Origin: Tetradesmus obliquus | Taxonomy: Eukaryota > Chlorophyta > Chlorophyceae > Sphaeropleales > Scenedesmaceae | DNA length: 64,000 nucleotides | Direction: 5' to 3' | Assembly: GCA_030272155.1 (NCBI GenBank) | Contig: CP126207.1 | Coordinates: forward strand, 2,232,001 to 2,296,000 | Shown here: in pieces, positions 1,454 through 54,280 of the stretch | Numbering within the stretch: position 1 is the stretch's first letter | Layout of the letters: each line of letters opens with the position of its first letter | Notes under the pieces: generated by a model | The model's database searches: none | Told to the model about the DNA's origin: nothing | The model's input: the letters and a program-made list of their open reading frames with translations, nothing else | Program-made: the position numbers and the translations under genes

Positions 1454-2541
1454 CTGCAGTTACAGTACAAACCCTAGTCAGTGGTGAACCTTGGACATGA
1501 GCAGTAGTGACGCCGGCGGTGCTTGGTTGAGGGTGCGGCTTGGCTGTGCAGACGGCATTAGCATGCTATGTCATTGTGTAGCACTGTATTGTGAATGCAG
1601 TATTGTCTGTTGAGTAATCATGAATATTTAATTGAAGTCACTGGGTCTCATAAAGATTCTCGCCTCGTACATGCAGGTACATAGTCAAGATCCGTATGCA
1701 TCTATTGGTGTGCTCAGATTGTGCGCAGCCTGCGTGCATGTCCAGAAAACCGAGTTTACGTATGTCCCTGGGCGCCCTAAGAAACTGCGGGGATTTGCGT
1801 GTTTTGGCCCTGCTGTGCTGCTTCGAGTGAAACATAAAAAGTATGCTTGCATCTGACAGCAGCAGCAGGGCTGACCATGCACTGTGGGCTTGTGTGTGCT
1901 TCTGTGATGGCATTACATTGCTGGTGTGCACTCGTGATGTTCGCCCTGCCTGGCTTTGCTACTTGCAAATAACGCGTTTTGTGCATCTCGATAATTTGGG
2001 TGTGACACAGTGATGCAGCGCGCTGCAGCAGCAGCCCAGCTGGCCCACCTGCTGCCTGCAACCAGCTCCTGGCCCCTTGCTGTGCTGATGTGTGCTGTTG
2101 GCAGCCTTGCCCCAAGTACCGTTTTCGTTGCTGTTCTGTGCGGAAGTTACATGTGCTGAAAAGCAGTACTTCTGGGGGGTCGACAGCAGCAGCAGCACGC
2201 AGCACAGCAGGAGTGCATGCATTCAGCCTCTTCAGCCCTGCATTGTGTGCCTGTGGTAACCGTCCTTACACGTACGAGTTTGCGATTGATACTGTTGCAA
2301 CTCAGATACTTGGCAGGCAAAAGGCCCTGTGAGAATGAATATGAGACCCAGTGAGTATCGAGCCCCTGCATGGCATGGGTTTAGGGCTGTTGACGTGTGT
2401 TGCGAACCAGCAGCTCAGCCGCTGGTAATATTTGCAGTGATACAGCATCGAAGTTCGCAGTTTCTGACTACTATCACCGGATGTAAGCATCGCTGCACGC
2501 ATAGCTTTGCCGTTGCCAAGTTTGACTCGGCATGATCTTAC
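1454..2541 (-). other. Putative 5'UTR intron of the transposase, carrying the CACTA-like element
   Basis: On the minus strand, donor GTG|GTAAGA starts at 2541 and acceptor CTGCAG|AAC ends at 1454, three bases before the ATG codon at 1450. A branch-site-like CTGAC lies about 25 bases before the acceptor. The intron would be 1,088 bp, or 376 bp in units 14 and 15 where the element is gone (49127-49502 and 52082-52457). This would explain why the insertion is tolerated. Alternatively the element lies in the promoter region, next to an AT-rich TTAAATATTC stretch (about 1624-1633). Confidence 0.35.
1639..2353. mobile_element. Non-autonomous CACTA/EnSpm-like element, 715 bp (reference copy)
   Basis: The ends are CACTGGGTCTCATA and its exact complement TATGAGACCCAGTG. 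The inverted repeat extends imperfectly to about 25 bp (21 matches). AGT flanks both sides (1636-1638 and 2354-2356), the 3-bp target duplication expected of CACTA elements, which begin CACTA or CACTG. There is no transposase frame inside, so movement would need an enzyme encoded elsewhere; the Tc1/mariner-type enzyme of the array is of a different superfamily (TA target). The boundaries are independently confirmed by units 14 and 15, which lack this segment. Short CAG runs occur inside. Confidence 0.78.
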
Positions 2542-2949
2542 CACCTTGCTTGCTGTAGCGCGACAGGAATCCCTGATCACAACCGCGGAAATATACTATA
2601 TGGCTTCAAATGTCGGATAGGAGCACGGCAGGAGCAGGAGGTCGGGCGAGGACGAGCAGGCATCACGCAATCGTGCAGCAGGTGAGGAGCAACAACCTGG
2701 CCAGACATCGATGTATTGCAACACGCATCCGCAGTTCAGAAGTGATATTTCAGTAGAACACACAGCGTGCTACCTAGCATGAGCATTGCAGCTGTGCAGC
2801 ATGCTGGCCAGAGCAGCAGCTGCGCCCTCCTGGCAGAACTGGTCTGCTGCATTTCAGCAGCAGCCAGGCTCTACACGATTTACTTATCAGCACCAGAACC
2901 TCCGCCAGTAACATACCATCTCTACTGTGCCATTGCCTCCTGCAGGCAC
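2354..2949. other. Gene-poor 5' region between the CACTA-like element and the nuclease 5' exon
   Basis: No frame here resembles a protein. From left to right it holds the right AGT target duplication (2354-2356), an imperfect hairpin (2407-2425), a minus-strand donor (2541), the TATA-like core (2589-2603), a plus-strand donor (2682) and the intron leading to acceptor 2945. A 24-codon frame from ATG 2610 ends exactly at the 2682 donor in phase 0 but does not join the nuclease frame through the best acceptors, so I treat it as probably non-coding. The same stretch lies at corresponding positions in all units. Confidence 0.5.
2589..2603. promoter_or_regulatory. Putative bidirectional TATA-like promoter core
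   Basis: AAATATACTATATGG is nearly the same read on either strand (TATACTATA / TATAGTATA). About 80 bp to its right a good donor, CAG|GTGAGG, begins at 2682 on the plus strand. About 50 bp to its left a good minus-strand donor, GTG|GTAAGA, begins at 2541. Each could end a short non-coding first exon, the first leading to the nuclease and the second to the transposase of the same unit. Other copies begin at 6256, 9923, 13590, 17257, 20924, 24591, 28258, 31925, 35592, 39261, 42928, 46595, 49550, 52505, 56172, 59839 and 63506. No transcript data support it. Confidence 0.3.
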
Positions 2950-4364
2950 ATGTCAGGCATGGAGCATTGCTGCCAGGCACTCGGCAGCAGCAGCAGCGCG
3001 AGTGCCGCCAGCAGCTGTGGGTGCCAACACACCATGCCCATCAACAACCAAGACAATCACGTTGCAGCAGGTATGAAATGCATCCAGCATATGCAGTGCT
3101 GTCACTACACCACATCAGCTGTTGCAACAGCTTGCAGCAACCAAGTTGAACAGCAGCAGGCAACCCATCTGCATGAGTTGCGCAAGCAGTGCATGCACCA
3201 ACCTCTACCTCAGGCCTGGTGGGGCATACAGCCCACCACTGTTAATGATTGCCTGGTAGGTTGCTGGGAGGCTATCAATATCAGCCTGGACAGAAGCAGC
3301 TGGGTAGGCAAAGAACAATTCCACCAACTTGGCTATGCACTCCTTGTCATTGGGCTTGTTGTTCCAGCGCGCATAACGCCAGGCTGTCATTGCCTGGGTC
3401 AGGTATGCATGCACATGCTCCACTACCTTGTGCATGTCAGGACTCAGGGCTGGCAAACTCAAAAGCCTGCCTGCAGGCCAGATGCCTAGCGACGCAAGCT
3501 CAGCCTTGGTGTGGGCTGTGCTGTTGTCCTGTGACAGCAGCCAGGGCGCGTGGCGCTGCAAACCCAGGCGTTCTGAGATGGTGTCCAGGTTGAGGTTGAG
3601 GTCCCAGATGCAATCCTCATACTCATCAGCTGTCATGCCTGTTGCCTCCTCATTTGTGGTGGTCTGCAGGTACCAGCAGCAGTGCAGGCAGCAGCACAGC
3701 AGCAGCGGCACGCGGCGGCAGGCCCAGGGGGAAGTTTAGCAAGGAGGCTGAACAGCTGTATAAGCCAGAATTAAACTACATGCTGCTGAAGGACCAAGCA
3801 GCATACAGCACCCTCAAGCTTGTGTTCAAGTGCAAGTGCTGCAACAGGAAGCACACAAGGCTGCTGGCACTGCAAACAGCATCCCGTGGCCAGCAGCCAT
3901 TCGCATGCCACGTGTGCACGCGCAGGGGCAGCAAGCATGAGAGGTTGCTGTATCAATTGCTGGACCAGTCTGCAGCTGTTGACTGCTATGCTGTTGAGGC
4001 AGTTGCTATTAGCAAGAAGATACAGCTGCAGGTAGCTGGCAGCAGCAAGGGGCTGTGGCTGAACCGGCACAAGTGGGATGCCATGCTGCTGAAGCCACAC
4101 AGCTTGCTGATTGAGGTTCAAGGGGAGCAACACATAGATACAGAGGATGGCAGGCGCAACAACCGGGGTGACACGCTGGCAATCAGGCAAGCCAAGGATG
4201 AGGCACTGGCAACAGCAGCACTGGCCTTTGGGTTCAGTGTGCTGTGGCTTCACGCGGGTGCTGCTGATGACCCGTGCGGCCGCGCCGTGCGCTGGGCAGC
4301 AGCTCTGCAGCAGGCGGTGCAGCACGTTACTGCTGGCAGGCCCCCCAAGCTGTTCATGGCATGA
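2950..4364 (+). CDS. Zinc-ribbon Vsr/EDxHD-like nuclease, spliced (reference copy)
   Basis: Probable DNA endonuclease of the Vsr/homing-endonuclease-like fold. The main exon, 3670-4364, is well supported. A 5' coding exon, 2950-3070, is inferred from acceptor CTCCTGCAG|GCAC, donor CAG|GTATGA and matching phase 1, giving 271 aa. In that numbering there is an AT-hook-like RGGRPRGK at 55-62, a zinc ribbon (C95, C97/C98, C120, C123), helix SKHE with E131, then KWD (D177), IEVQGEQH (E189, H195) and RQAKDEA (K216). This order of zinc ribbon, SKxE helix, D, and IExxGxQH is that of Vsr-like phage and homing nucleases. An unspliced start at ATG 3642 (240 aa) is possible. The intron 3071-3669 contains the whole last transposase exon on the other strand. 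The stop is 6 bp from the transposase donor. The role could be an accessory of the transposon or a homing nuclease lodged in its intron; I cannot tell which. Confidence 0.62.
3117..3132. repeat. 16-bp perfect palindrome
   Basis: AGCTGTTGCAACAGCT is its own reverse complement. It lies 73 bp past the transposase stop and inside the nuclease intron. It recurs in each unit. It could be a protein-binding site or an RNA hairpin near the transposase 3' end; function unknown. Confidence 0.5.
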
Positions 4365-5117
4365 ACTCACCCGGTAAGCACAGCCCTCCCTGTCCCATGG
4401 CATGCCAGTTGTGCCTGTGAAGAACTTGATCCACACAGGCCCCAGCTGGTAGTTGACGCCAATGATGTACTTCAGCTTGATCGTCTTGCGGTTGCGCGTG
4501 AGCCGTGGCATGCTCCAGGCAAAGTCCTCTGCATCGCTGCTATACCAGCCCCTGGTGCAGCATTGGCTGAGGCACATCACCTTTTCATCCACATACACCA
4601 CCCAAGGCTTCTGCTCCTCAAACACCTGCAGCTTCTCACCACACGATGTCACCCTGTCCCGCTTGTGCTGCGCGTCCAGGTAGGGCCGGTTGCGCACCTT
4701 GCCATACTGGAAGTGCGGGTCAATCTGCCTCATGTGCCTGGTCAGGGTCTCGCCGGAGACGCCAGCGGCTGTGATGATGTCACGCACCACGGGGTTGGTT
4801 GTCATGAGCGCGTGTACCGACTCGTACGGCCGCGGCCTGCCTGCTGCATACCAGTTGAGGCATTCAGCATAGCATGTGTGCGTCTGAGCATCAGTCAGTT
4901 TTGGCGGACGGCCGCTGCCTGACTCAGGGACGACAATGTTGCCGTCAACATCCATGCGCGGGCCCCAAATCCGCATGTATTGCAGTGGATTAGAGGGCAC
5001 AGGCAGGCCTGCGTCCTCTAGCATGGTGCGCATGGCCGCTGTGGCTGCATTGACATTGCCCCTGTTGGCCCTGTATGCAAGGCCAGCGGCAGCCTCCAGG
5101 CCGACTGTCAAGGTCAT
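3205..5117 (-). CDS. Tc1/mariner-like DD35E transposase, two coding exons (reference copy)
   Basis: Transposases of this class cut and rejoin transposon DNA with a DDE catalytic triad. Coding exons are 5117-4371 (249 codons) and 3663-3205 (152 codons plus TAG), giving 401 aa. The 707-bp phase-0 intron has donor CGG|GTGAGT and acceptor CTGCAG|ACC. Residues about 70-130 look helix-turn-helix-like, with GRPPKL before them and GRPRP within. The catalytic core is D177 (VVYVDEK), D295 (SQDNSTAH) and E331 (SPDMHKVVEH), with 35 residues between the last two; the second and third motifs match the DNxxxH and SPDxxxxxE patterns of Tc1/mariner enzymes. The C-terminus (INSGGLY) also fits the family. ATG 5117 is chosen because TAA lies in frame four codons upstream. 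Without splicing, exon 1 would run on to 448 aa and lack D295 and E331. The intron is nearly filled by the nuclease exon on the other strand. Exons and catalytic residues are inferred from sequence; activity is unknown. Confidence 0.82.
3664..3669. promoter_or_regulatory. Shared palindromic 3' splice site (CTGCAG)
   Basis: This six-base palindrome ends an intron on both strands. On the minus strand it gives CTGCAG|ACCACC, opening transposase exon 2 at 3663. On the plus strand a pyrimidine-rich run (about 3631-3666) leads into CTGCAG|GTACC, opening the main nuclease exon at 3670. Both junctions keep the expected reading frame. The site recurs in every unit; the window begins inside one copy. 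Splicing is inferred from sequence. Confidence 0.5.
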
Positions 5118-5305
5118 GTTCTGCAGTTACAGTACAAACCCTAGTCAGTGGTGAACCTTGGACATGAGCAGTAGTGACGCCGGCGGTGCTTGGTTGAGGG
5201 TGCGGCTTGGCTGTGCAGACGGCATTAGCATGCTATGTCATTGTGTAGCACTGTATTGTGAATGCAGTATTGTCTGTTGAGTAATCATGAATATTTAATT
5301 GAAGT

Positions 5306-6020
5306 CACTGGGTCTCATAAAGATTCTCGCCTCGTACATGCAGGTACATAGTCAAGATCCGTATGCATCTATTGGTGTGCTCAGATTGTGCGCAGCCTGC
5401 GTGCATGTCCAGAAAACCGAGTTTACGTATGTCCCTGGGCGCCCTAAGAAACTGCGGGGATTTGCGTGTTTTGGCCCTGCTGTGCTGCTTCGAGTGAAAC
5501 ATAAAAAGTATGCTTGCATCTGACAGCAGCAGCAGGGCTGACCATGCACTGTGGGCTTGTGTGTGCTTCTGTGATGGCATTACATTGCTGGTGTGCACTC
5601 GTGATGTTCGCCCTGCCTGGCTTTGCTACTTGCAAATAACGCGTTTTGTGCATCTCGATAATTTGGGTGTGACACAGTGATGCAGCGCGCTGCAGCAGCA
5701 GCCCAGCTGGCCCACCTGCTGCCTGCAACCAGCTCCTGGCCCCTTGCTGTGCTGATGTGTGCTGTTGGCAGCCTTGCCCCAAGTACCGTTTTCGTTGCTG
5801 TTCTGTGCGGAAGTTACATGTGCTGAAAAGCAGTACTTCTGGGGGGTCGACAGCAGCAGCAGCACGCAGCACAGCAGGAGTGCATGCATTCAGCCTCTTC
5901 AGCCCTGCATTGTGTGCCTGTGGTAACCGTCCTTACACGTACGAGTTTGCGATTGATACTGTTGCAACTCAGATACTTGGCAGGCAAAAGGCCCTGTGAG
6001 AATGAATATGAGACCCAGTG
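5306..6020. mobile_element. CACTA-like element, unit 2
   Basis: Intact copy flanked by AGT at 5303-5305 and 6021-6023, upstream of the transposase that starts at 5117. Confidence 0.78.
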
Positions 6021-6616
6021 AGTATCGAGCCCCTGCATGGCATGGGTTTAGGGCTGTTGACGTGTGTTGCGAACCAGCAGCTCAGCCGCTGGTAATATTT
6101 GCAGTGATACAGCATCGAAGTTCGCAGTTTCTGACTACTATCACCGGATGTAAGCATCGCTGCACGCATAGCTTTGCCGTTGCCAAGTTTGACTCGGCAT
6201 GATCTTACCACCTTGCTTGCTGTAGCGCGACAGGAATCCCTGATCACAACCGCGGAAATATACTATATGGCTTCAAATGTCGGATAGGAGCACGGCAGGA
6301 GCAGGAGGTCGGGCGAGGACGAGCAGGCATCACGCAATCGTGCAGCAGGTGAGGAGCAACAACCTGGCCAGACATCGATGTATTGCAACACGCATCCGCA
6401 GTTCAGAAGTGATATTTCAGTAGAACACACAGCGTGCTACCTAGCATGAGCATTGCAGCTGTGCAGCATGCTGGCCAGAGCAGCAGCTGCGCCCTCCTGG
6501 CAGAACTGGTCTGCTGCATTTCAGCAGCAGCCAGGCTCTACACGATTTACTTATCAGCACCAGAACCTCCGCCAGTAACATACCATCTCTACTGTGCCAT
6601 TGCCTCCTGCAGGCAC

Positions 6617-8031
6617 ATGTCAGGCATGGAGCATTGCTGCCAGGCACTCGGCAGCAGCAGCAGCGCGAGTGCCGCCAGCAGCTGTGGGTGCCAACACACC
6701 ATGCCCATCAACAACCAAGACAATCACGTTGCAGCAGGTATGAAATGCATCCAGCATATGCAGTGCTGTCACTACACCACATCAGCTGTTGCAACAGCTT
6801 GCAGCAACCAAGTTGAACAGCAGCAGGCAACCCATCTGCATGAGTTGCGCAAGCAGTGCATGCACCAACCTCTACCTCAGGCCTGGTGGGGCATACAGCC
6901 CACCACTGTTAATGATTGCCTGGTAGGTTGCTGGGAGGCTATCAATATCAGCCTGGACAGAAGCAGCTGGGTAGGCAAAGAACAATTCCACCAACTTGGC
7001 TATGCACTCCTTGTCATTGGGCTTGTTGTTCCAGCGCGCATAACGCCAGGCTGTCATTGCCTGGGTCAGGTATGCATGCACATGCTCCACTACCTTGTGC
7101 ATGTCAGGACTCAGGGCTGGCAAACTCAAAAGCCTGCCTGCAGGCCAGATGCCTAGCGACGCAAGCTCAGCCTTGGTGTGGGCTGTGCTGTTGTCCTGTG
7201 ACAGCAGCCAGGGCGCGTGGCGCTGCAAACCCAGGCGTTCTGAGATGGTGTCCAGGTTGAGGTTGAGGTCCCAGATGCAATCCTCATACTCATCAGCTGT
7301 CATGCCTGTTGCCTCCTCATTTGTGGTGGTCTGCAGGTACCAGCAGCAGTGCAGGCAGCAGCACAGCAGCAGCGGCACGCGGCGGCAGGCCCAGGGGGAA
7401 GTTTAGCAAGGAGGCTGAACAGCTGTATAAGCCAGAATTAAACTACATGCTGCTGAAGGACCAAGCAGCATACAGCACCCTCAAGCTTGTGTTCAAGTGC
7501 AAGTGCTGCAACAGGAAGCACACAAGGCTGCTGGCACTGCAAACAGCATCCCGTGGCCAGCAGCCATTCGCATGCCACGTGTGCACGCGCAGGGGCAGCA
7601 AGCATGAGAGGTTGCTGTATCAATTGCTGGACCAGTCTGCAGCTGTTGACTGCTATGCTGTTGAGGCAGTTGCTATTAGCAAGAAGATACAGCTGCAGGT
7701 AGCTGGCAGCAGCAAGGGGCTGTGGCTGAACCGGCACAAGTGGGATGCCATGCTGCTGAAGCCACACAGCTTGCTGATTGAGGTTCAAGGGGAGCAACAC
7801 ATAGATACAGAGGATGGCAGGCGCAACAACCGGGGTGACACGCTGGCAATCAGGCAAGCCAAGGATGAGGCACTGGCAACAGCAGCACTGGCCTTTGGGT
7901 TCAGTGTGCTGTGGCTTCACGCGGGTGCTGCTGATGACCCGTGCGGCCGCGCCGTGCGCTGGGCAGCAGCTCTGCAGCAGGCGGTGCAGCACGTTACTGC
8001 TGGCAGGCCCCCCAAGCTGTTCATGGCATGA
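6617..8031 (+). CDS. Nuclease, unit 3
   Basis: Exons 6617-6737 (inferred) and 7337-8031; intact. Confidence 0.6.
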
Positions 8032-35952: not shown

Positions 35953-37367
35953 ATGTCAGGCATGGAGCATTGCTGCCAGGCACTCGGCAGCAGCAGCAGC
36001 GCGAGTGCCGCCAGCAGCTGTGGGTGCCAACACACCATGCCCATCAACAACCAAGACAATCACGTTGCAGCAGGTATGAAATGCATCCAGCATATGCAGT
36101 GCTGTCACTACACCACATCAGCTGTTGCAACAGCTTGCAGCAACCAAGTTGAACAGCAGCAGGCAACCCATCTGCATGAGTTGCGCAAGCAGTGCATGCA
36201 CCAACCTCTACCTCAGGCCTGGTGGGGCATACAGCCCACCACTGTTAATGATTGCCTGGTAGGTTGCTGGGAGGCTATCAATATCAGCCTGGACAGAAGC
36301 AGCTGGGTAGGCAAAGAACAATTCCACCAACTTGGCTATGCACTCCTTGTCATTGGGCTTGTTGTTCCAGCGCGCATAACGCCAGGCTGTCATTGCCTGG
36401 GTCAGGTATGCATGCACATGCTCCACTACCTTGTGCATGTCAGGACTCAGGGCTGGCAAACTCAAAAGCCTGCCTGCAGGCCAGATGCCTAGCGACGCAA
36501 GCTCAGCCTTGGTGTGGGCTGTGCTGTTGTCCTGTGACAGCAGCCAGGGCGCGTGGCGCTGCAAACCCAGGCGTTCTGAGATGGTGTCCAGGTTGAGGTT
36601 GAGGTCCCAGATGCAATCCTCATACTCATCAGCTGTCATGCCTGTTGCCTCCTCATTTGTGGTGGTCTGCAGGTACCAGCAGCAGTGCAGGCAGCAGCAC
36701 AGCAGCAGCGGCACGCGGCGGCAGGCCCAGGGGGAAGTTTAGCAAGGAGGCTGAACAGCTGTATAAGCCAGAATTAAACTACATGCTGCTGAAGGACCAA
36801 GCAGCATACAGCACCCTCAAGCTTGTGTTCAAGTGCAAGTGCTGCAACAGGAAGCACACAAGGCTGCTGGCACTGCAAACAGCATCCCGTGGCCAGCAGC
36901 CATTCGCATGCCACGTGTGCACGCGCAGGGGCAGCAAGCATGAGAGGTTGCTGTATCAATTGCTGGACCAGTCTGCAGCTGTTGACTGCTATGCTGTTGA
37001 GGCAGTTGCTATTAGCAAGAAGATACAGCTGCAGGTAGCTGGCAGCAGCAAGGGGCTGTGGCTGAACCGGCACAAGTGGGATGCCATGCTGCTGAAGCCA
37101 CACAGCTTGCTGATTGAGGTTCAAGGGGAGCAACACATAGATACAGAGGATGGCAGGCGCAACAACCGGGGTGACACGCTGGCAATCAGGCAAGCCAAGG
37201 ATGAGGCACTGGCAACAGCAGCACTGGCCTTTGGGTTCAGTGTGCTGTGGCTTCACGCGGGTGCTGCTGATGACCCGTGCGGCCGCGCCGTGCGCTGGGC
37301 AGCAGCTCTGCAGCAGGCGGTGCAGCACGTTACTGCTGGCAGGCCCCCCAAGCTGTTCATGGCATGA
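35953..37367 (+). CDS. Nuclease, unit 11
   Basis: Exons 35953-36073 (inferred) and 36673-37367; intact, unaffected by the GT insertion in this unit. Confidence 0.6.
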
Positions 37368-38122
37368 ACTCACCCGGTAAGCACAGCCCTCCCTGTCCCA
37401 TGGCATGCCAGTTGTGCCTGTGAAGAACTTGATCCACACAGGCCCCAGCTGGTAGTTGACGCCAATGATGTACTTCAGCTTGATCGTCTTGCGGTTGCGC
37501 GTGAGCCGTGGCATGCTCCAGGCAAAGTCCTCTGCATCGCTGCTATACCAGCCCCTGGTGCAGCATTGGCTGAGGCACATCACCTTTTCATCCACATACA
37601 CCACCCAAGGCTTCTGCTCCTCAAACACCTGCAGCTTCTCACCACACGATGTCACCCTGTCCCGCTTGTGCTGCGCGTCCAGGTAGGGCCGGTTGCGCAC
37701 CTTGCCATACTGGAAGTGCGGGTCAATCTGCCTCATGTGCCTGGTCAGGGTCTCGCCGGAGACGCCAGCGGCTGTGATGATGTCACGCACCACGGGGTTG
37801 GTTGTCATGAGCGCGTGTGTACCGACTCGTACGGCCGCGGCCTGCCTGCTGCATACCAGTTGAGGCATTCAGCATAGCATGTGTGCGTCTGAGCATCAGT
37901 CAGTTTTGGCGGACGGCCGCTGCCTGACTCAGGGACGACAATGTTGCCGTCAACATCCATGCGCGGGCCCCAAATCCGCATGTATTGCAGTGGATTAGAG
38001 GGCACAGGCAGGCCTGCGTCCTCTAGCATGGTGCGCATGGCCGCTGTGGCTGCATTGACATTGCCCCTGTTGGCCCTGTATGCAAGGCCAGCGGCAGCCT
38101 CCAGGCCGACTGTCAAGGTCAT
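36208..38122 (-). pseudogene. Transposase, unit 11: frameshifted
   Basis: Exons 38122-37374 and 36666-36208. An extra GT in a short GT run (37815-37820, three repeats against two elsewhere) shifts the frame after His102, so translation from the normal start ends at 105 aa, before all three catalytic residues. The rest of the frame, from residue 103 on, remains open but has no normal start. This is the only broken transposase in the window; a sequencing error in the GT run cannot be excluded. Confidence 0.8.
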
Positions 38123-38310
38123 GTTCTGCAGTTACAGTACAAACCCTAGTCAGTGGTGAACCTTGGACATGAGCAGTAGTGACGCCGGCGGTGCTTGGTT
38201 GAGGGTGCGGCTTGGCTGTGCAGACGGCATTAGCATGCTATGTCATTGTGTAGCACTGTATTGTGAATGCAGTATTGTCTGTTGAGTAATCATGAATATT
38301 TAATTGAAGT

Positions 38311-39025
38311 CACTGGGTCTCATAAAGATTCTCGCCTCGTACATGCAGGTACATAGTCAAGATCCGTATGCATCTATTGGTGTGCTCAGATTGTGCGCAG
38401 CCTGCGTGCATGTCCAGAAAACCGAGTTTACGTATGTCCCTGGGCGCCCTAAGAAACTGCGGGGATTTGCGTGTTTTGGCCCTGCTGTGCTGCTTCGAGT
38501 GAAACATAAAAAGTATGCTTGCATCTGACAGCAGCAGCAGGGCTGACCATGCACTGTGGGCTTGTGTGTGCTTCTGTGATGGCATTACATTGCTGGTGTG
38601 CACTCGTGATGTTCGCCCTGCCTGGCTTTGCTACTTGCAAATAACGCGTTTTGTGCATCTCGATAATTTGGGTGTGACACAGTGATGCAGCGCGCTGCAG
38701 CAGCAGCCCAGCTGGCCCACCTGCTGCCTGCAACCAGCTCCTGGCCCCTTGCTGTGCTGATGTGTGCTGTTGGCAGCCTTGCCCCAAGTACCGTTTTCGT
38801 TGCTGTTCTGTGCGGAAGTTACATGTGCTGAAAAGCAGTACTTCTGGGGGGTCGACAGCAGCAGCAGCACGCAGCACAGCAGGAGTGCATGCATTCAGCC
38901 TCTTCAGCCCTGCATTGTGTGCCTGTGGTAACCGTCCTTACACGTACGAGTTTGCGATTGATACTGTTGCAACTCAGATACTTGGCAGGCAAAAGGCCCT
39001 GTGAGAATGAATATGAGACCCAGTG
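38311..39025. mobile_element. CACTA-like element, unit 11
   Basis: Intact 715-bp copy, upstream of the frameshifted transposase. Confidence 0.78.
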
Positions 39026-39621
39026 AGTATCGAGCCCCTGCATGGCATGGGTTTAGGGCTGTTGACGTGTGTTGCGAACCAGCAGCTCAGCCGCTGGTAA
39101 TATTTGCAGTGATACAGCATCGAAGTTCGCAGTTTCTGACTACTATCACCGGATGTAAGCATCGCTGCACGCATAGCTTTGCCGTTGCCAAGTTTGACTC
39201 GGCATGATCTTACCACCTTGCTTGCTGTAGCGCGACAGGAATCCCTGATCACAACCGCGGAAATATACTATATGGCTTCAAATGTCGGATAGGAGCACGG
39301 CAGGAGCAGGAGGTCGGGCGAGGACGAGCAGGCATCACGCAATCGTGCAGCAGGTGAGGAGCAACAACCTGGCCAGACATCGATGTATTGCAACACGCAT
39401 CCGCAGTTCAGAAGTGATATTTCAGTAGAACACACAGCGTGCTACCTAGCATGAGCATTGCAGCTGTGCAGCATGCTGGCCAGAGCAGCAGCTGCGCCCT
39501 CCTGGCAGAACTGGTCTGCTGCATTTCAGCAGCAGCCAGGCTCTACACGATTTACTTATCAGCACCAGAACCTCCGCCAGTAACATACCATCTCTACTGT
39601 GCCATTGCCTCCTGCAGGCAC

Positions 39622-41036
39622 ATGTCAGGCATGGAGCATTGCTGCCAGGCACTCGGCAGCAGCAGCAGCGCGAGTGCCGCCAGCAGCTGTGGGTGCCAAC
39701 ACACCATGCCCATCAACAACCAAGACAATCACGTTGCAGCAGGTATGAAATGCATCCAGCATATGCAGTGCTGTCACTACACCACATCAGCTGTTGCAAC
39801 AGCTTGCAGCAACCAAGTTGAACAGCAGCAGGCAACCCATCTGCATGAGTTGCGCAAGCAGTGCATGCACCAACCTCTACCTCAGGCCTGGTGGGGCATA
39901 CAGCCCACCACTGTTAATGATTGCCTGGTAGGTTGCTGGGAGGCTATCAATATCAGCCTGGACAGAAGCAGCTGGGTAGGCAAAGAACAATTCCACCAAC
40001 TTGGCTATGCACTCCTTGTCATTGGGCTTGTTGTTCCAGCGCGCATAACGCCAGGCTGTCATTGCCTGGGTCAGGTATGCATGCACATGCTCCACTACCT
40101 TGTGCATGTCAGGACTCAGGGCTGGCAAACTCAAAAGCCTGCCTGCAGGCCAGATGCCTAGCGACGCAAGCTCAGCCTTGGTGTGGGCTGTGCTGTTGTC
40201 CTGTGACAGCAGCCAGGGCGCGTGGCGCTGCAAACCCAGGCGTTCTGAGATGGTGTCCAGGTTGAGGTTGAGGTCCCAGATGCAATCCTCATACTCATCA
40301 GCTGTCATGCCTGTTGCCTCCTCATTTGTGGTGGTCTGCAGGTACCAGCAGCAGTGCAGGCAGCAGCACAGCAGCAGCGGCACGCGGCGGCAGGCCCAGG
40401 GGGAAGTTTAGCAAGGAGGCTGAACAGCTGTATAAGCCAGAATTAAACTACATGCTGCTGAAGGACCAAGCAGCATACAGCACCCTCAAGCTTGTGTTCA
40501 AGTGCAAGTGCTGCAACAGGAAGCACACAAGGCTGCTGGCACTGCAAACAGCATCCCGTGGCCAGCAGCCATTCGCATGCCACGTGTGCACGCGCAGGGG
40601 CAGCAAGCATGAGAGGTTGCTGTATCAATTGCTGGACCAGTCTGCAGCTGTTGACTGCTATGCTGTTGAGGCAGTTGCTATTAGCAAGAAGATACAGCTG
40701 CAGGTAGCTGGCAGCAGCAAGGGGCTGTGGCTGAACCGGCACAAGTGGGATGCCATGCTGCTGAAGCCACACAGCTTGCTGATTGAGGTTCAAGGGGAGC
40801 AACACATAGATACAGAGGATGGCAGGCGCAACAACCGGGGTGACACGCTGGCAATCAGGCAAGCCAAGGATGAGGCACTGGCAACAGCAGCACTGGCCTT
40901 TGGGTTCAGTGTGCTGTGGCTTCACGCGGGTGCTGCTGATGACCCGTGCGGCCGCGCCGTGCGCTGGGCAGCAGCTCTGCAGCAGGCGGTGCAGCACGTT
41001 ACTGCTGGCAGGCCCCCCAAGCTGTTCATGGCATGA
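39622..41036 (+). CDS. Nuclease, unit 12
   Basis: Exons 39622-39742 (inferred) and 40342-41036; intact. Confidence 0.6.
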
Positions 41037-46955: not shown

Positions 46956-48370
46956 ATGTCAGGCATGGAGCATTGCTGCCAGGCACTCGGCAGCAGCAGC
47001 AGCGCGAGTGCCGCCAGCAGCTGTGGGTGCCAACACACCATGCCCATCAACAACCAAGACAATCACGTTGCAGCAGGTATGAAATGCATCCAGCATATGC
47101 AGTGCTGTCACTACACCACATCAGCTGTTGCAACAGCTTGCAGCAACCAAGTTGAACAGCAGCAGGCAACCCATCTGCATGAGTTGCGCAAGCAGTGCAT
47201 GCACCAACCTCTACCTCAGGCCTGGTGGGGCATACAGCCCACCACTGTTAATGATTGCCTGGTAGGTTGCTGGGAGGCTATCAATATCAGCCTGGACAGA
47301 AGCAGCTGGGTAGGCAAAGAACAATTCCACCAACTTGGCTATGCACTCCTTGTCATTGGGCTTGTTGTTCCAGCGCGCATAACGCCAGGCTGTCATTGCC
47401 TGGGTCAGGTATGCATGCACATGCTCCACTACCTTGTGCATGTCAGGACTCAGGGCTGGCAAACTCAAAAGCCTGCCTGCAGGCCAGATGCCTAGCGACG
47501 CAAGCTCAGCCTTGGTGTGGGCTGTGCTGTTGTCCTGTGACAGCAGCCAGGGCGCGTGGCGCTGCAAACCCAGGCGTTCTGAGATGGTGTCCAGGTTGAG
47601 GTTGAGGTCCCAGATGCAATCCTCATACTCATCAGCTGTCATGCCTGTTGCCTCCTCATTTGTGGTGGTCTGCAGGTACCAGCAGCAGTGCAGGCAGCAG
47701 CACAGCAGCAGCGGCACGCGGCGGCAGGCCCAGGGGGAAGTTTAGCAAGGAGGCTGAACAGCTGTATAAGCCAGAATTAAACTACATGCTGCTGAAGGAC
47801 CAAGCAGCATACAGCACCCTCAAGCTTGTGTTCAAGTGCAAGTGCTGCAACAGGAAGCACACAAGGCTGCTGGCACTGCAAACAGCATCCCGTGGCCAGC
47901 AGCCATTCGCATGCCACGTGTGCACGCGCAGGGGCAGCAAGCATGAGAGGTTGCTGTATCAATTGCTGGACCAGTCTGCAGCTGTTGACTGCTATGCTGT
48001 TGAGGCAGTTGCTATTAGCAAGAAGATACAGCTGCAGGTAGCTGGCAGCAGCAAGGGGCTGTGGCTGAACCGGCACAAGTGGGATGCCATGCTGCTGAAG
48101 CCACACAGCTTGCTGATTGAGGTTCAAGGGGAGCAACACATAGATACAGAGGATGGCAGGCGCAACAACCGGGGTGACACGCTGGCAATCAGGCAAGCCA
48201 AGGATGAGGCACTGGCAACAGCAGCACTGGCCTTTGGGTTCAGTGTGCTGTGGCTTCACGCGGGTGCTGCTGATGACCCGTGCGGCCGCGCCGTGCGCTG
48301 GGCAGCAGCTCTGCAGCAGGCGGTGCAGCACGTTACTGCTGGCAGGCCCCCCAAGCTGTTCATGGCATGA
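46956..48370 (+). CDS. Nuclease, unit 14
   Basis: Exons 46956-47076 (inferred) and 47676-48370; intact. Confidence 0.6.
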
Positions 48371-49123
48371 ACTCACCCGGTAAGCACAGCCCTCCCTGTC
48401 CCATGGCATGCCAGTTGTGCCTGTGAAGAACTTGATCCACACAGGCCCCAGCTGGTAGTTGACGCCAATGATGTACTTCAGCTTGATCGTCTTGCGGTTG
48501 CGCGTGAGCCGTGGCATGCTCCAGGCAAAGTCCTCTGCATCGCTGCTATACCAGCCCCTGGTGCAGCATTGGCTGAGGCACATCACCTTTTCATCCACAT
48601 ACACCACCCAAGGCTTCTGCTCCTCAAACACCTGCAGCTTCTCACCACACGATGTCACCCTGTCCCGCTTGTGCTGCGCGTCCAGGTAGGGCCGGTTGCG
48701 CACCTTGCCATACTGGAAGTGCGGGTCAATCTGCCTCATGTGCCTGGTCAGGGTCTCGCCGGAGACGCCAGCGGCTGTGATGATGTCACGCACCACGGGG
48801 TTGGTTGTCATGAGCGCGTGTACCGACTCGTACGGCCGCGGCCTGCCTGCTGCATACCAGTTGAGGCATTCAGCATAGCATGTGTGCGTCTGAGCATCAG
48901 TCAGTTTTGGCGGACGGCCGCTGCCTGACTCAGGGACGACAATGTTGCCGTCAACATCCATGCGCGGGCCCCAAATCCGCATGTATTGCAGTGGATTAGA
49001 GGGCACAGGCAGGCCTGCGTCCTCTAGCATGGTGCGCATGGCCGCTGTGGCTGCATTGACATTGCCCCTGTTGGCCCTGTATGCAAGGCCAGCGGCAGCC
49101 TCCAGGCCGACTGTCAAGGTCAT
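47211..49123 (-). CDS. Transposase, unit 14 (element-free upstream region)
   Basis: Exons 49123-48377 and 47669-47211; intact. Its upstream region is one of the two from which the CACTA-like element is missing, so the putative 5'UTR intron is only 376 bp. Confidence 0.8.
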
Positions 49124-49308
49124 GTTCTGCAGTTACAGTACAAACCCTAGTCAGTGGTGAACCTTGGACATGAGCAGTAGTGACGCCGGCGGTGCTTGGT
49201 TGAGGGTGCGGCTTGGCTGTGCAGACGGCATTAGCATGCTATGTCATTGTGTAGCACTGTATTGTGAATGCAGTATTGTCTGTTGAGTAATCATGAATAT
49301 TTAATTGA

Positions 49309-49317
49309 AGTCTGAGT
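49309..49317. mobile_element. CACTA-like element excision footprint, unit 14
   Basis: AGT-CTG-AGT. Both target-duplication copies remain with three bases between them, matching the first base (C) and last two bases (TG) of the element. A site never occupied would have a single AGT, so this is a scar of excision. The unit is 712 bp shorter. Confidence 0.75.
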
Positions 49318-49910
49318 ATCGAGCCCCTGCATGGCATGGGTTTAGGGCTGTTGACGTGTGTTGCGAACCAGCAGCTCAGCCGCTGGTAATATTTGCAGTG
49401 ATACAGCATCGAAGTTCGCAGTTTCTGACTACTATCACCGGATGTAAGCATCGCTGCACGCATAGCTTTGCCGTTGCCAAGTTTGACTCGGCATGATCTT
49501 ACCACCTTGCTTGCTGTAGCGCGACAGGAATCCCTGATCACAACCGCGGAAATATACTATATGGCTTCAAATGTCGGATAGGAGCACGGCAGGAGCAGGA
49601 GGTCGGGCGAGGACGAGCAGGCATCACGCAATCGTGCAGCAGGTGAGGAGCAACAACCTGGCCAGACATCGATGTATTGCAACACGCATCCGCAGTTCAG
49701 AAGTGATATTTCAGTAGAACACACAGCGTGCTACCTAGCATGAGCATTGCAGCTGTGCAGCATGCTGGCCAGAGCAGCAGCTGCGCCCTCCTGGCAGAAC
49801 TGGTCTGCTGCATTTCAGCAGCAGCCAGGCTCTACACGATTTACTTATCAGCACCAGAACCTCCGCCAGTAACATACCATCTCTACTGTGCCATTGCCTC
49901 CTGCAGGCAC

Positions 49911-51325
49911 ATGTCAGGCATGGAGCATTGCTGCCAGGCACTCGGCAGCAGCAGCAGCGCGAGTGCCGCCAGCAGCTGTGGGTGCCAACACACCATGCCC
50001 ATCAACAACCAAGACAATCACGTTGCAGCAGGTATGAAATGCATCCAGCATATGCAGTGCTGTCACTACACCACATCAGCTGTTGCAACAGCTTGCAGCA
50101 ACCAAGTTGAACAGCAGCAGGCAACCCATCTGCATGAGTTGCGCAAGCAGTGCATGCACCAACCTCTACCTCAGGCCTGGTGGGGCATACAGCCCACCAC
50201 TGTTAATGATTGCCTGGTAGGTTGCTGGGAGGCTATCAATATCAGCCTGGACAGAAGCAGCTGGGTAGGCAAAGAACAATTCCACCAACTTGGCTATGCA
50301 CTCCTTGTCATTGGGCTTGTTGTTCCAGCGCGCATAACGCCAGGCTGTCATTGCCTGGGTCAGGTATGCATGCACATGCTCCACTACCTTGTGCATGTCA
50401 GGACTCAGGGCTGGCAAACTCAAAAGCCTGCCTGCAGGCCAGATGCCTAGCGACGCAAGCTCAGCCTTGGTGTGGGCTGTGCTGTTGTCCTGTGACAGCA
50501 GCCAGGGCGCGTGGCGCTGCAAACCCAGGCGTTCTGAGATGGTGTCCAGGTTGAGGTTGAGGTCCCAGATGCAATCCTCATACTCATCAGCTGTCATGCC
50601 TGTTGCCTCCTCATTTGTGGTGGTCTGCAGGTACCAGCAGCAGTGCAGGCAGCAGCACAGCAGCAGCGGCACGCGGCGGCAGGCCCAGGGGGAAGTTTAG
50701 CAAGGAGGCTGAACAGCTGTATAAGCCAGAATTAAACTACATGCTGCTGAAGGACCAAGCAGCATACAGCACCCTCAAGCTTGTGTTCAAGTGCAAGTGC
50801 TGCAACAGGAAGCACACAAGGCTGCTGGCACTGCAAACAGCATCCCGTGGCCAGCAGCCATTCGCATGCCACGTGTGCACGCGCAGGGGCAGCAAGCATG
50901 AGAGGTTGCTGTATCAATTGCTGGACCAGTCTGCAGCTGTTGACTGCTATGCTGTTGAGGCAGTTGCTATTAGCAAGAAGATACAGCTGCAGGTAGCTGG
51001 CAGCAGCAAGGGGCTGTGGCTGAACCGGCACAAGTGGGATGCCATGCTGCTGAAGCCACACAGCTTGCTGATTGAGGTTCAAGGGGAGCAACACATAGAT
51101 ACAGAGGATGGCAGGCGCAACAACCGGGGTGACACGCTGGCAATCAGGCAAGCCAAGGATGAGGCACTGGCAACAGCAGCACTGGCCTTTGGGTTCAGTG
51201 TGCTGTGGCTTCACGCGGGTGCTGCTGATGACCCGTGCGGCCGCGCCGTGCGCTGGGCAGCAGCTCTGCAGCAGGCGGTGCAGCACGTTACTGCTGGCAG
51301 GCCCCCCAAGCTGTTCATGGCATGA
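49911..51325 (+). CDS. Nuclease, unit 15
   Basis: Exons 49911-50031 (inferred) and 50631-51325; intact. Confidence 0.6.
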
Positions 51326-52078
51326 ACTCACCCGGTAAGCACAGCCCTCCCTGTCCCATGGCATGCCAGTTGTGCCTGTGAAGAACTTGATCCACACAGG
51401 CCCCAGCTGGTAGTTGACGCCAATGATGTACTTCAGCTTGATCGTCTTGCGGTTGCGCGTGAGCCGTGGCATGCTCCAGGCAAAGTCCTCTGCATCGCTG
51501 CTATACCAGCCCCTGGTGCAGCATTGGCTGAGGCACATCACCTTTTCATCCACATACACCACCCAAGGCTTCTGCTCCTCAAACACCTGCAGCTTCTCAC
51601 CACACGATGTCACCCTGTCCCGCTTGTGCTGCGCGTCCAGGTAGGGCCGGTTGCGCACCTTGCCATACTGGAAGTGCGGGTCAATCTGCCTCATGTGCCT
51701 GGTCAGGGTCTCGCCGGAGACGCCAGCGGCTGTGATGATGTCACGCACCACGGGGTTGGTTGTCATGAGCGCGTGTACCGACTCGTACGGCCGCGGCCTG
51801 CCTGCTGCATACCAGTTGAGGCATTCAGCATAGCATGTGTGCGTCTGAGCATCAGTCAGTTTTGGCGGACGGCCGCTGCCTGACTCAGGGACGACAATGT
51901 TGCCGTCAACATCCATGCGCGGGCCCCAAATCCGCATGTATTGCAGTGGATTAGAGGGCACAGGCAGGCCTGCGTCCTCTAGCATGGTGCGCATGGCCGC
52001 TGTGGCTGCATTGACATTGCCCCTGTTGGCCCTGTATGCAAGGCCAGCGGCAGCCTCCAGGCCGACTGTCAAGGTCAT
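50166..52078 (-). CDS. Transposase, unit 15 (element-free upstream region)
   Basis: Exons 52078-51332 and 50624-50166; intact. Second copy whose upstream region has lost the element. Confidence 0.8.
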
Positions 52079-52263
52079 GTTCTGCAGTTACAGTACAAAC
52101 CCTAGTCAGTGGTGAACCTTGGACATGAGCAGTAGTGACGCCGGCGGTGCTTGGTTGAGGGTGCGGCTTGGCTGTGCAGACGGCATTAGCATGCTATGTC
52201 ATTGTGTAGCACTGTATTGTGAATGCAGTATTGTCTGTTGAGTAATCATGAATATTTAATTGA

Positions 52264-52272
52264 AGTCTGAGT
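52264..52272. mobile_element. CACTA-like element excision footprint, unit 15
   Basis: AGT-CTG-AGT, identical to the scar one unit earlier, implying that one excised unit was copied rather than two separate excisions. Confidence 0.75.
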
Positions 52273-52865
52273 ATCGAGCCCCTGCATGGCATGGGTTTAG
52301 GGCTGTTGACGTGTGTTGCGAACCAGCAGCTCAGCCGCTGGTAATATTTGCAGTGATACAGCATCGAAGTTCGCAGTTTCTGACTACTATCACCGGATGT
52401 AAGCATCGCTGCACGCATAGCTTTGCCGTTGCCAAGTTTGACTCGGCATGATCTTACCACCTTGCTTGCTGTAGCGCGACAGGAATCCCTGATCACAACC
52501 GCGGAAATATACTATATGGCTTCAAATGTCGGATAGGAGCACGGCAGGAGCAGGAGGTCGGGCGAGGACGAGCAGGCATCACGCAATCGTGCAGCAGGTG
52601 AGGAGCAACAACCTGGCCAGACATCGATGTATTGCAACACGCATCCGCAGTTCAGAAGTGATATTTCAGTAGAACACACAGCGTGCTACCTAGCATGAGC
52701 ATTGCAGCTGTGCAGCATGCTGGCCAGAGCAGCAGCTGCGCCCTCCTGGCAGAACTGGTCTGCTGCATTTCAGCAGCAGCCAGGCTCTACACGATTTACT
52801 TATCAGCACCAGAACCTCCGCCAGTAACATACCATCTCTACTGTGCCATTGCCTCCTGCAGGCAC

Positions 52866-54280
52866 ATGTCAGGCATGGAGCATTGCTGCCAGGCACTCGG
52901 CAGCAGCAGCAGCGCGAGTGCCGCCAGCAGCTGTGGGTGCCAACACACCATGCCCATCAACAACCAAGACAATCACGTTGCAGCAGGTATGAAATGCATC
53001 CAGCATATGCAGTGCTGTCACTACACCACATCAGCTGTTGCAACAGCTTGCAGCAACCAAGTTGAACAGCAGCAGGCAACCCATCTGCATGAGTTGCGCA
53101 AGCAGTGCATGCACCAACCTCTACCTCAGGCCTGGTGGGGCATACAGCCCACCACTGTTAATGATTGCCTGGTAGGTTGCTGGGAGGCTATCAATATCAG
53201 CCTGGACAGAAGCAGCTGGGTAGGCAAAGAACAATTCCACCAACTTGGCTATGCACTCCTTGTCATTGGGCTTGTTGTTCCAGCGCGCATAACGCCAGGC
53301 TGTCATTGCCTGGGTCAGGTATGCATGCACATGCTCCACTACCTTGTGCATGTCAGGACTCAGGGCTGGCAAACTCAAAAGCCTGCCTGCAGGCCAGATG
53401 CCTAGCGACGCAAGCTCAGCCTTGGTGTGGGCTGTGCTGTTGTCCTGTGACAGCAGCCAGGGCGCGTGGCGCTGCAAACCCAGGCGTTCTGAGATGGTGT
53501 CCAGGTTGAGGTTGAGGTCCCAGATGCAATCCTCATACTCATCAGCTGTCATGCCTGTTGCCTCCTCATTTGTGGTGGTCTGCAGGTACCAGCAGCAGTG
53601 CAGGCAGCAGCACAGCAGCAGCGGCACGCGGCGGCAGGCCCAGGGGGAAGTTTAGCAAGGAGGCTGAACAGCTGTATAAGCCAGAATTAAACTACATGCT
53701 GCTGAAGGACCAAGCAGCATACAGCACCCTCAAGCTTGTGTTCAAGTGCAAGTGCTGCAACAGGAAGCACACAAGGCTGCTGGCACTGCAAACAGCATCC
53801 CGTGGCCAGCAGCCATTCGCATGCCACGTGTGCACGCGCAGGGGCAGCAAGCATGAGAGGTTGCTGTATCAATTGCTGGACCAGTCTGCAGCTGTTGACT
53901 GCTATGCTGTTGAGGCAGTTGCTATTAGCAAGAAGATACAGCTGCAGGTAGCTGGCAGCAGCAAGGGGCTGTGGCTGAACCGGCACAAGTGGGATGCCAT
54001 GCTGCTGAAGCCACACAGCTTGCTGATTGAGGTTCAAGGGGAGCAACACATAGATACAGAGGATGGCAGGCGCAACAACCGGGGTGACACGCTGGCAATC
54101 AGGCAAGCCAAGGATGAGGCACTGGCAACAGCAGCACTGGCCTTTGGGTTCAGTGTGCTGTGGCTTCACGCGGGTGCTGCTGATGACCCGTGCGGCCGCG
54201 CCGTGCGCTGGGCAGCAGCTCTGCAGCAGGCGGTGCAGCACGTTACTGCTGGCAGGCCCCCCAAGCTGTTCATGGCATGA
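52866..54280 (+). CDS. Nuclease, unit 16
   Basis: Exons 52866-52986 (inferred) and 53586-54280; intact. Confidence 0.6.

Follow-up and report, generated by a model that had tools for sequence, protein, structure and literature searches.

Introduction

In Tn7, a restriction-like nuclease (TnsA) is paired with a DDE transposase (TnsB) within one element. The IS630-Tc1-mariner transposases, among them Mos1, Hsmar1/SETMAR, and Sleeping Beauty, are marked by a DDE triad, by DN and SPD-type motifs, and by a spacing of 35 residues between the second Asp and the Glu, while homing endonucleases of phage introns such as I-Bth0305I combine a CapR/DUF4379 zinc finger with a following EDxHD/Vsr-like nuclease domain (PMC12350094, available sections). 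Here we describe a locus of the green alga Tetradesmus obliquus in which a predicted transposase of the mariner kind and a predicted nuclease of the homing kind are encoded on opposite strands and appear to be interlocked through their introns. The locus lies in a stretch of 64,000 nucleotides (contig CP126207.1 of assembly GCA_030272155.1, positions 2,232,001 to 2,296,000), hereafter the window, in which a 3667-bp unit is repeated head to tail. This unit is probably a DNA element of green algae, or a descendant of one, with two genes, for the transposase and the nuclease, that are mutually spliced.

Gene pairs on opposite strands that are nested at introns have been described in animals (PMC12274878), metazoans quite often have genes that are nested or interleaved (PMC2291194), so that interleaving as such is already known, and antisense overlap in Giardia has been argued to favour intron retention (PMC6545626), as far as the available sections of these three papers go. 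As in the known nested antisense pairs, one gene of the algal locus lies within an intron of a gene on the opposite strand. The algal pair differs from them in being, by prediction, reciprocal, in its shared palindromic acceptor and its margins of 6 nt, and in belonging to a mobile-element-like family. With the IS630-Tc1-mariner group it shares the triad, the motifs, and the spacing named above and, in two relatives and below the family cut-off, a Tc3-type helix-turn-helix just before the first Asp. In contrast to that group, the algal triad is split by an intron that holds a gene, the transposase is accompanied by a Vsr-type nuclease, the units form a tandem array, and no ends with TA and terminal inverted repeats were identified. 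Accessory open reading frames (ORFs) are found in the ciliate TBE and Tec elements, one of those in Tec lying in the complement, and no Tc1/mariner elements are reported from Chlorophyta in the available part of the same survey (PMC7325037). The nuclease resembles the phage-intron homing endonucleases in the order of its predicted domains and in its fold match; unlike theirs, its gene lies antisense in a GT-AG intron predicted for a transposase gene. It also belongs to another nuclease subfamily than TnsA, and a joint action of the two algal proteins comparable to that of TnsA and TnsB is only a proposal. A literature search, with most subscription journals outside its scope, found no publication on such an element or on a transposase and a nuclease in reciprocal interlock, and the available parts of PMC8226300, PMC12636532, and PMC3689595 make no mention of such an element. 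Judged from its sequence, the locus reads as an undescribed element family of green algae in which the known nesting of antisense genes takes a new form.

Gene structure and splice signals

The predicted transposase gene, on the minus strand, consists of exon 1 of 747 nt (5117-4371), an intron of 707 nt (4370-3664, GTGAGT...CTGCAG), and exon 2 of 459 nt (3663-3205), which together encode 401 amino acids. On the plus strand, the predicted nuclease gene runs from a proposed exon 1 of 121 nt (2950-3070) through an intron of 599 nt (3071-3669, GTATGA...CTGCAG) into its main exon (3670-4364, up to the stop codon) and encodes 271 amino acids. The main nuclease exon fills the transposase intron in antisense, and the predicted nuclease intron holds the whole of transposase exon 2, also in antisense. 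Both predicted introns are 3n+2 nt long with GT/AG ends and consistent phases, and the two genes have no coding bases in common. On each side of the main nuclease exon a margin of 6 nt is left: GTGAGT (4370-4365), the minus-strand 5' splice site, which adjoins the nuclease stop codon TGA (4362-4364), and CTGCAG (3664-3669), a palindrome that is the predicted 3' splice site on both strands. This arrangement had been proposed in a sequence-only reading of the window, and its coordinates, GT/AG ends, phases, and 6-bp margins were all exact on recheck, whereas the tandem array of which the locus is one unit had been left out. The reciprocal interlock that it claimed fares differently in its two halves. 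The nuclease within the transposase intron is kept in relatives; transposase exon 2 within a nuclease intron is only plausible, from the quality of the splice signals and one informative relative. Homologues losing one of the two frames would have spoken against the pair, and all three main coding pieces proved to be conserved in relatives.

The shared acceptor stands out among the nine CTGCAG sites of the unit, as 3664-3669 is the only one preceded on both strands by AG-free stretches of at least 40 nt (40 nt on the plus strand and 84 nt on the minus strand); AG-to-AG gaps of that length make up 4-5% of all such gaps. The next-best site, at 6607-6612, has stretches of 37 and 30 nt and is the counterpart, one unit on, of the site before nuclease exon 1 (2940-2945). 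On the minus strand, the stretch before the transposase acceptor is complementary to the GCAGCAG repeats from which the low-complexity start of the main nuclease exon is translated, a region that is plausibly a compromise between the two genes. The predicted transposase donor is identical to that used by an annotated T. obliquus gene model (OEZ86_007264, here P0001; P numbers denote database matches), which is 100% identical over exon 1. The same model weighs against the predicted splice in another respect: when located by a search of 2501-4371, its second exon was found to begin at 2939 (EAMAQ-stop), so that exon 2 is bypassed. The acceptor of P0001 is CTGCAG at 2940-2945, which may act as a plus-strand acceptor too.

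Conservation of the nuclease inside the transposase intron

The proteins of the relatives are mostly predicted without introns, and their ORFs that run through the donor therefore reveal the sequence behind it. The placement of genes in the relatives is read from ORF translations and not from DNA, which counts against the firmness of the comparison. Of 13 exon 1 matches, 11 pass the boundary; left out are P0001, a spliced annotation, and P0010, which ends earlier. The first residue after the donor boundary is Val (GTN) in all 11 relatives, and the third is Ser or Leu in all 11, a pattern that fits TCA, TTA, or CTA and hence a stop codon on the opposite strand, 6 nt inside the donor, although Ser and Leu have further codons and the agreement is one of compatibility, not proof.

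The tails behind the boundary were compared with the best of 13 nuclease C-termini, read backwards from the stop codon without offset, and each position was scored for codon compatibility with the antisense nuclease. Seven tails, of 22 to 60 residues, were testable. The compatible fraction was 1.00 in P0003 and P0009, 0.98 in P0008, 0.93 in P0004 and P0007, 0.88 in P0002, and 0.60 in P0011, whereas shuffled tails averaged 0.18-0.24 and offsets of 1-39 reached at most 0.33. The remaining four tails have only 4 residues and carry little information (two fit fully, two at 0.75). With 88-100% compatibility in six of the seven relatives, the nuclease-in-transposase half is therefore conserved. As far as the translations can tell, the nuclease lies on the opposite strand immediately behind the donor in families that share 46-83% transposase identity with the window, and probably also in P0011, with a transposase of 34% identity and a tail of 60% compatibility. 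The data are compatible with conservation of the tight 6-nt fit at the donor among these relatives. At the other end of the predicted intron, the ORFs that enter exon 2 from it (P0004, P0039, and P0042) have Leu-Gln right at the boundary in three of three cases, as CTG CAG would encode. A nested antisense pair, that is, one protein-coding gene in an intron of another on the opposite strand, is what was found for the nuclease and the transposase. Equal contig sizes (3660, 8541, 2472, and 3699 bp) were also considered as proof that pairs of matches share contigs and were dropped, the nuclease end of P0025 at 3699 bp not matching the tail of P0013.

The transposase and the nuclease

Transposase exon 1 (4371-5117) encodes a putative helix-turn-helix region and the first catalytic Asp (VYVDEK), and exon 2 (3205-3663) encodes the second Asp (QDNSTAH), the Glu (SPDMHKVVEH), and the stop, so that the catalytic residues are divided by the intron into one Asp on one side and Asp and Glu on the other. 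Database searches gave 13 matches for exon 1 and 24 for exon 2, in both cases with identities down to 31%. The catalytic Asp of exon 1, in a VDEK/IDAK-type motif, is invariant in 12 of 12 rows of an alignment made of the window and 11 of the 13 matches (P0001 and P0004 were left out), and D46 and E82 of exon 2, which 35 residues separate, are invariant in 25 of 25 rows. An exon 2 profile searched against PDB sequences gave SETMAR, Sleeping Beauty, and Mos1 at modest E values of 0.0048-0.12. The helix-turn-helix family PF01498 is found in the relatives P0010 (E 2.5e-4) and P0006 (E 0.024), both under the family cut-off, and exon 1 has weak fold matches to Mos1, Hsmar1, and Tc3, its predicted model having a predicted local distance difference test (pLDDT) score below 50 over most of residues 166-249, the catalytic half. 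By these sequence features, the minus-strand gene is predicted to encode a DDE transposase of the IS630-Tc1-mariner type.

Some results weigh against this assignment. In the exon 2 search, an unrelated PDB chain (E 0.047) outranks the last Mos1 entry (0.12). A Pfam scan of the spliced transposase and nuclease found no family. Comparison by hhalign with bacterial DDE_3 transposases gave weak probabilities of 5.5% for the composite, 35.9% for exon 2, and 7.4% for exon 1, with controls of 0.1% for the reversed sequence and 0.1% for the nuclease. PDB searches with the spliced transposase, the nuclease, exon 1, or mixed alignments found nothing relevant, and exon 2 alone succeeded.

The main nuclease exon (3670-4364) encodes, in this order, the low-complexity start, a GRPRG stretch, a treble-clef-like zinc finger, a Vsr/EDxHD PD-(D/E)XK domain, and the stop, and has 13 database matches with identities down to 46%. 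In the alignment of 14 rows, the CxC of the zinc finger is present in all 12 that reach that position, and the CxxC in all 13 that reach it. The zinc finger region matches PHROG 4538 and 9929, but no Pfam CapR/DUF4379 match was found in the algal proteins; the domain that follows has a fold match to the Vsr-like PD-(D/E)XK nucleases. From its sequence and predicted fold, then, the putative product of the plus-strand gene is a small nuclease in which a Vsr/EDxHD PD-(D/E)XK domain follows a treble-clef-like zinc finger and which has its kin among homing endonucleases of phages and bacteria. One of these, an annotated homing endonuclease of Staphylococcus phage Madawaska located inside an RNA polymerase gene, matches the algal nuclease by profile, while tblastn alone gave E 0.8. 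The relative P0014 as query gave three phages at E 0.5-0.8 and no plasmid match, and an NCBIfam scan of eight proteins gave nothing relevant. A search of prokaryotic genomes returned a single distant nuclease relative, from Vagococcus. Its gene, in Vagococcus proximus (L001, 4527-5468), encodes a nuclease that is akin to phage homing endonucleases (PHROG 9084, E 7.2e-20) and bears a distant relationship to the one from the alga. A viral origin of the locus was rejected, as no relative turned up in viral contigs, whether the query was exon 1 by itself or the alignment of the nuclease, of exon 1, or of exon 2.

The 5' end of the nuclease

The proposed nuclease exon 1 (2950-3070) is the weakest part of the gene model. 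Its one informative relative is P0028, in which 35 of 40 positions are identical, compared with 42 of 61 upstream and 32 of 58, with indels, downstream; the position of the donor is kept there without an indel. An acceptor-like CTGCAG ends at 2945, with the AG-free stretch of 37 nt at its counterpart in the following unit, and the exon could alternatively start at 2946 behind it, the first conserved ATG being that at 2959. P0028 keeps this ATG and has lost the one at 2950. Given the CTGCAG that ends at 2945, a further intron may precede exon 1.

The loss of the ATG at 2950 is also among several points that weigh against an intron at 3071-3669. Exon 1 is covered by two of 15 nuclease matches, and one of these, P0027, is nearly identical to the window. 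The main exon has an in-frame Met at 3780, a possible start that needs no intron, and in 9 of 13 relatives the predicted protein starts within about 12 residues of it. Without splicing, the plus-strand frame is open back to 3600, with no ATG before 3780. These points would suit a one-way nesting, in which the nuclease lies in the transposase intron but starts at Met 3780, in some other exon, or at a non-AUG codon. We regard this as somewhat unlikely. The similarity of P0016, and less clearly of P0024, extends upstream of Met 3780 (GRPR-FSxEA), which argues for a longer and hence spliced N-terminus of the nuclease; the plus-strand acceptor at 3669 is strong, with its 40-nt AG-free stretch; P0028 keeps exon 1 better than its flanks and the donor free of indels; and the starts of the relatives derive from gene prediction without introns. 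Transposase exon 2 within a nuclease intron is thus a plausible arrangement on the strength of these predicted signals.

The tandem array

The window (1-64000) contains 17 whole units of the array and 3081 bp of an eighteenth. Among the whole units, 14 are identical, one is longer by 2 bp, and two consecutive ones are shorter by 712 bp. The entire interlocked stretch at 2950-5117 is present in 16 exact copies; the longer unit (36673-40341) has two extra bases near 37819, a GT added to a GTGT run, which cause a frameshift inside transposase exon 1. Near-identical tandem copies are the usual state of a satellite, one unit is frameshifted, and the public annotation names exon 1 only, as a hypothetical protein. 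The array might on these grounds be a recently amplified, dead transposon fragment, and the interlock an unexpressed fossil of the ancestral element. However, 16 exact copies preserve both frames together with the identified splice signals, and the catalytic residues are intact here and in the relatives, which makes degeneration an unlikely account.

The longest contigs of the relatives (51 matches, P0001 not counted) have 46 distinct sizes, 11 of which fall within 3655-3712 bp, a density never equalled in 20,000 trials of a crude model in which 16 sizes were drawn evenly from 3000-4500 bp. The longest contig being only a proxy for unit size, this suggests complete units, tandem or circular, of near-constant size in several families. 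Smaller size groups are seen among the relatives (P0002-P0052) at 2899-2966 and 2452-2472 bp. Contigs of 3655-3712 bp are what one would expect from a circle or a collapsed array, and the near-perfect repetition of the window would also fit a circular extrachromosomal replicon, or a circle in assembly, instead of a chromosomal array. Such a circle is very unlikely, however, given that P0001, with its 100% identity to exon 1, sits on a T. obliquus contig of 3,054,181 bp and that two adjacent units have the same 712-bp loss inside the array. Contigs of 7334 and 8541 bp in relatives exceed one unit, which fits an array equally, and none of the families searched revealed a replication protein.

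Counting against the unit as a transposon, TA-flanked terminal inverted repeats were not found for the 3667 bp. The array shows no boundary between element and host, and the unit's clearest pair of inverted repeats marks the ends of an insertion that is described in the last section.

Proposed function

In the two-gene element that we favour, the 5' ends of both genes would point away from each other into an intergenic region of about 1.5 kb, whereas their bodies would run through each other. Each pre-mRNA would carry the main exon of the other gene in antisense and lose it as a GT-AG spliceosomal intron, with the splice signals packed into the 6-nt margins of the nuclease exon and the palindromic CTGCAG acting as acceptor for both. 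This scheme supposes that both splices take place in vivo and that the nuclease has an upstream exon. As intron loss or recombination between the genes would destroy both, the interlock would link them and keep them inseparable.

Both proteins would then probably serve the same element, the transposase by excising or joining its ends and the nuclease by site-specific cutting, perhaps within the element or array, so that repair of the break would spread or amplify the units. That nuclease cuts promote the spread of the element or the growth of the array by repair, we consider rather unlikely as matters stand. We attach the same doubt to a wider proposal, in which a family of eukaryotic elements would carry two enzymes, a transposase of the mariner type and a homing nuclease of the phage type, tied to each other by mutual introns with a shared two-strand acceptor, making the loss or separation of either gene impossible; the nuclease would aid spread or multiplication as head-to-tail arrays or circles of nearly constant length, about 3.65 kb in many relatives, much as in a homing transposon or the TnsA/TnsB pair, and the complementary pre-mRNAs would limit expression.

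If the interlock is reciprocal, the splice signals of each gene depend on the coding sequence of the other protein, with the transposase acceptor region lying antisense to the low-complexity start of the nuclease and the transposase donor adjoining its stop codon. The locus would thereby offer a natural test of intron retention, of the use of one palindrome as acceptor on two strands, and of the tolerance of convergent transcription with complementary pre-mRNAs. It also points to a mariner-like group in green algae, paired with a homing-type nuclease, where the published survey had none. Annotation pipelines can split or miss genes of this kind, and the present locus is an example.

Other features of the unit

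A group I, group II, or other structured intron was rejected, as a scan of 2900-6900 against Rfam gave nothing at E values up to 0.5, and candidate bacterial promoters and terminators, which are irrelevant for a nuclear genome, were not above shuffles. Just upstream of the transposase ATG, on the minus strand, CTGCAG at 5121-5126 is a possible extra 3' splice site, perhaps of an intron in the 5' untranslated region; its AG-free stretch is only 20 nt.

At 5306-6020, and at the same place in the other full-length units, there is an insertion of 715 bp with no recognised gene. Its ends are perfect terminal inverted repeats of 14 bp, CACTGGGTCTCATA, and it is flanked by a 3-bp AGT duplication (5303-5305 and 6021-6023). 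From these ends and the duplication we take it to be CACTA/EnSpm-like, the superfamily name being our assumption and not a database match. A nearly constant unit size in several families is hard to reconcile with a recent arrival of this insertion in the unit of the window. The two consecutive shorter units (47676-53585) are without the insertion and retain AGT-CTG-AGT, a footprint of the excision type. As both share it, a single excision was probably copied along with the array.
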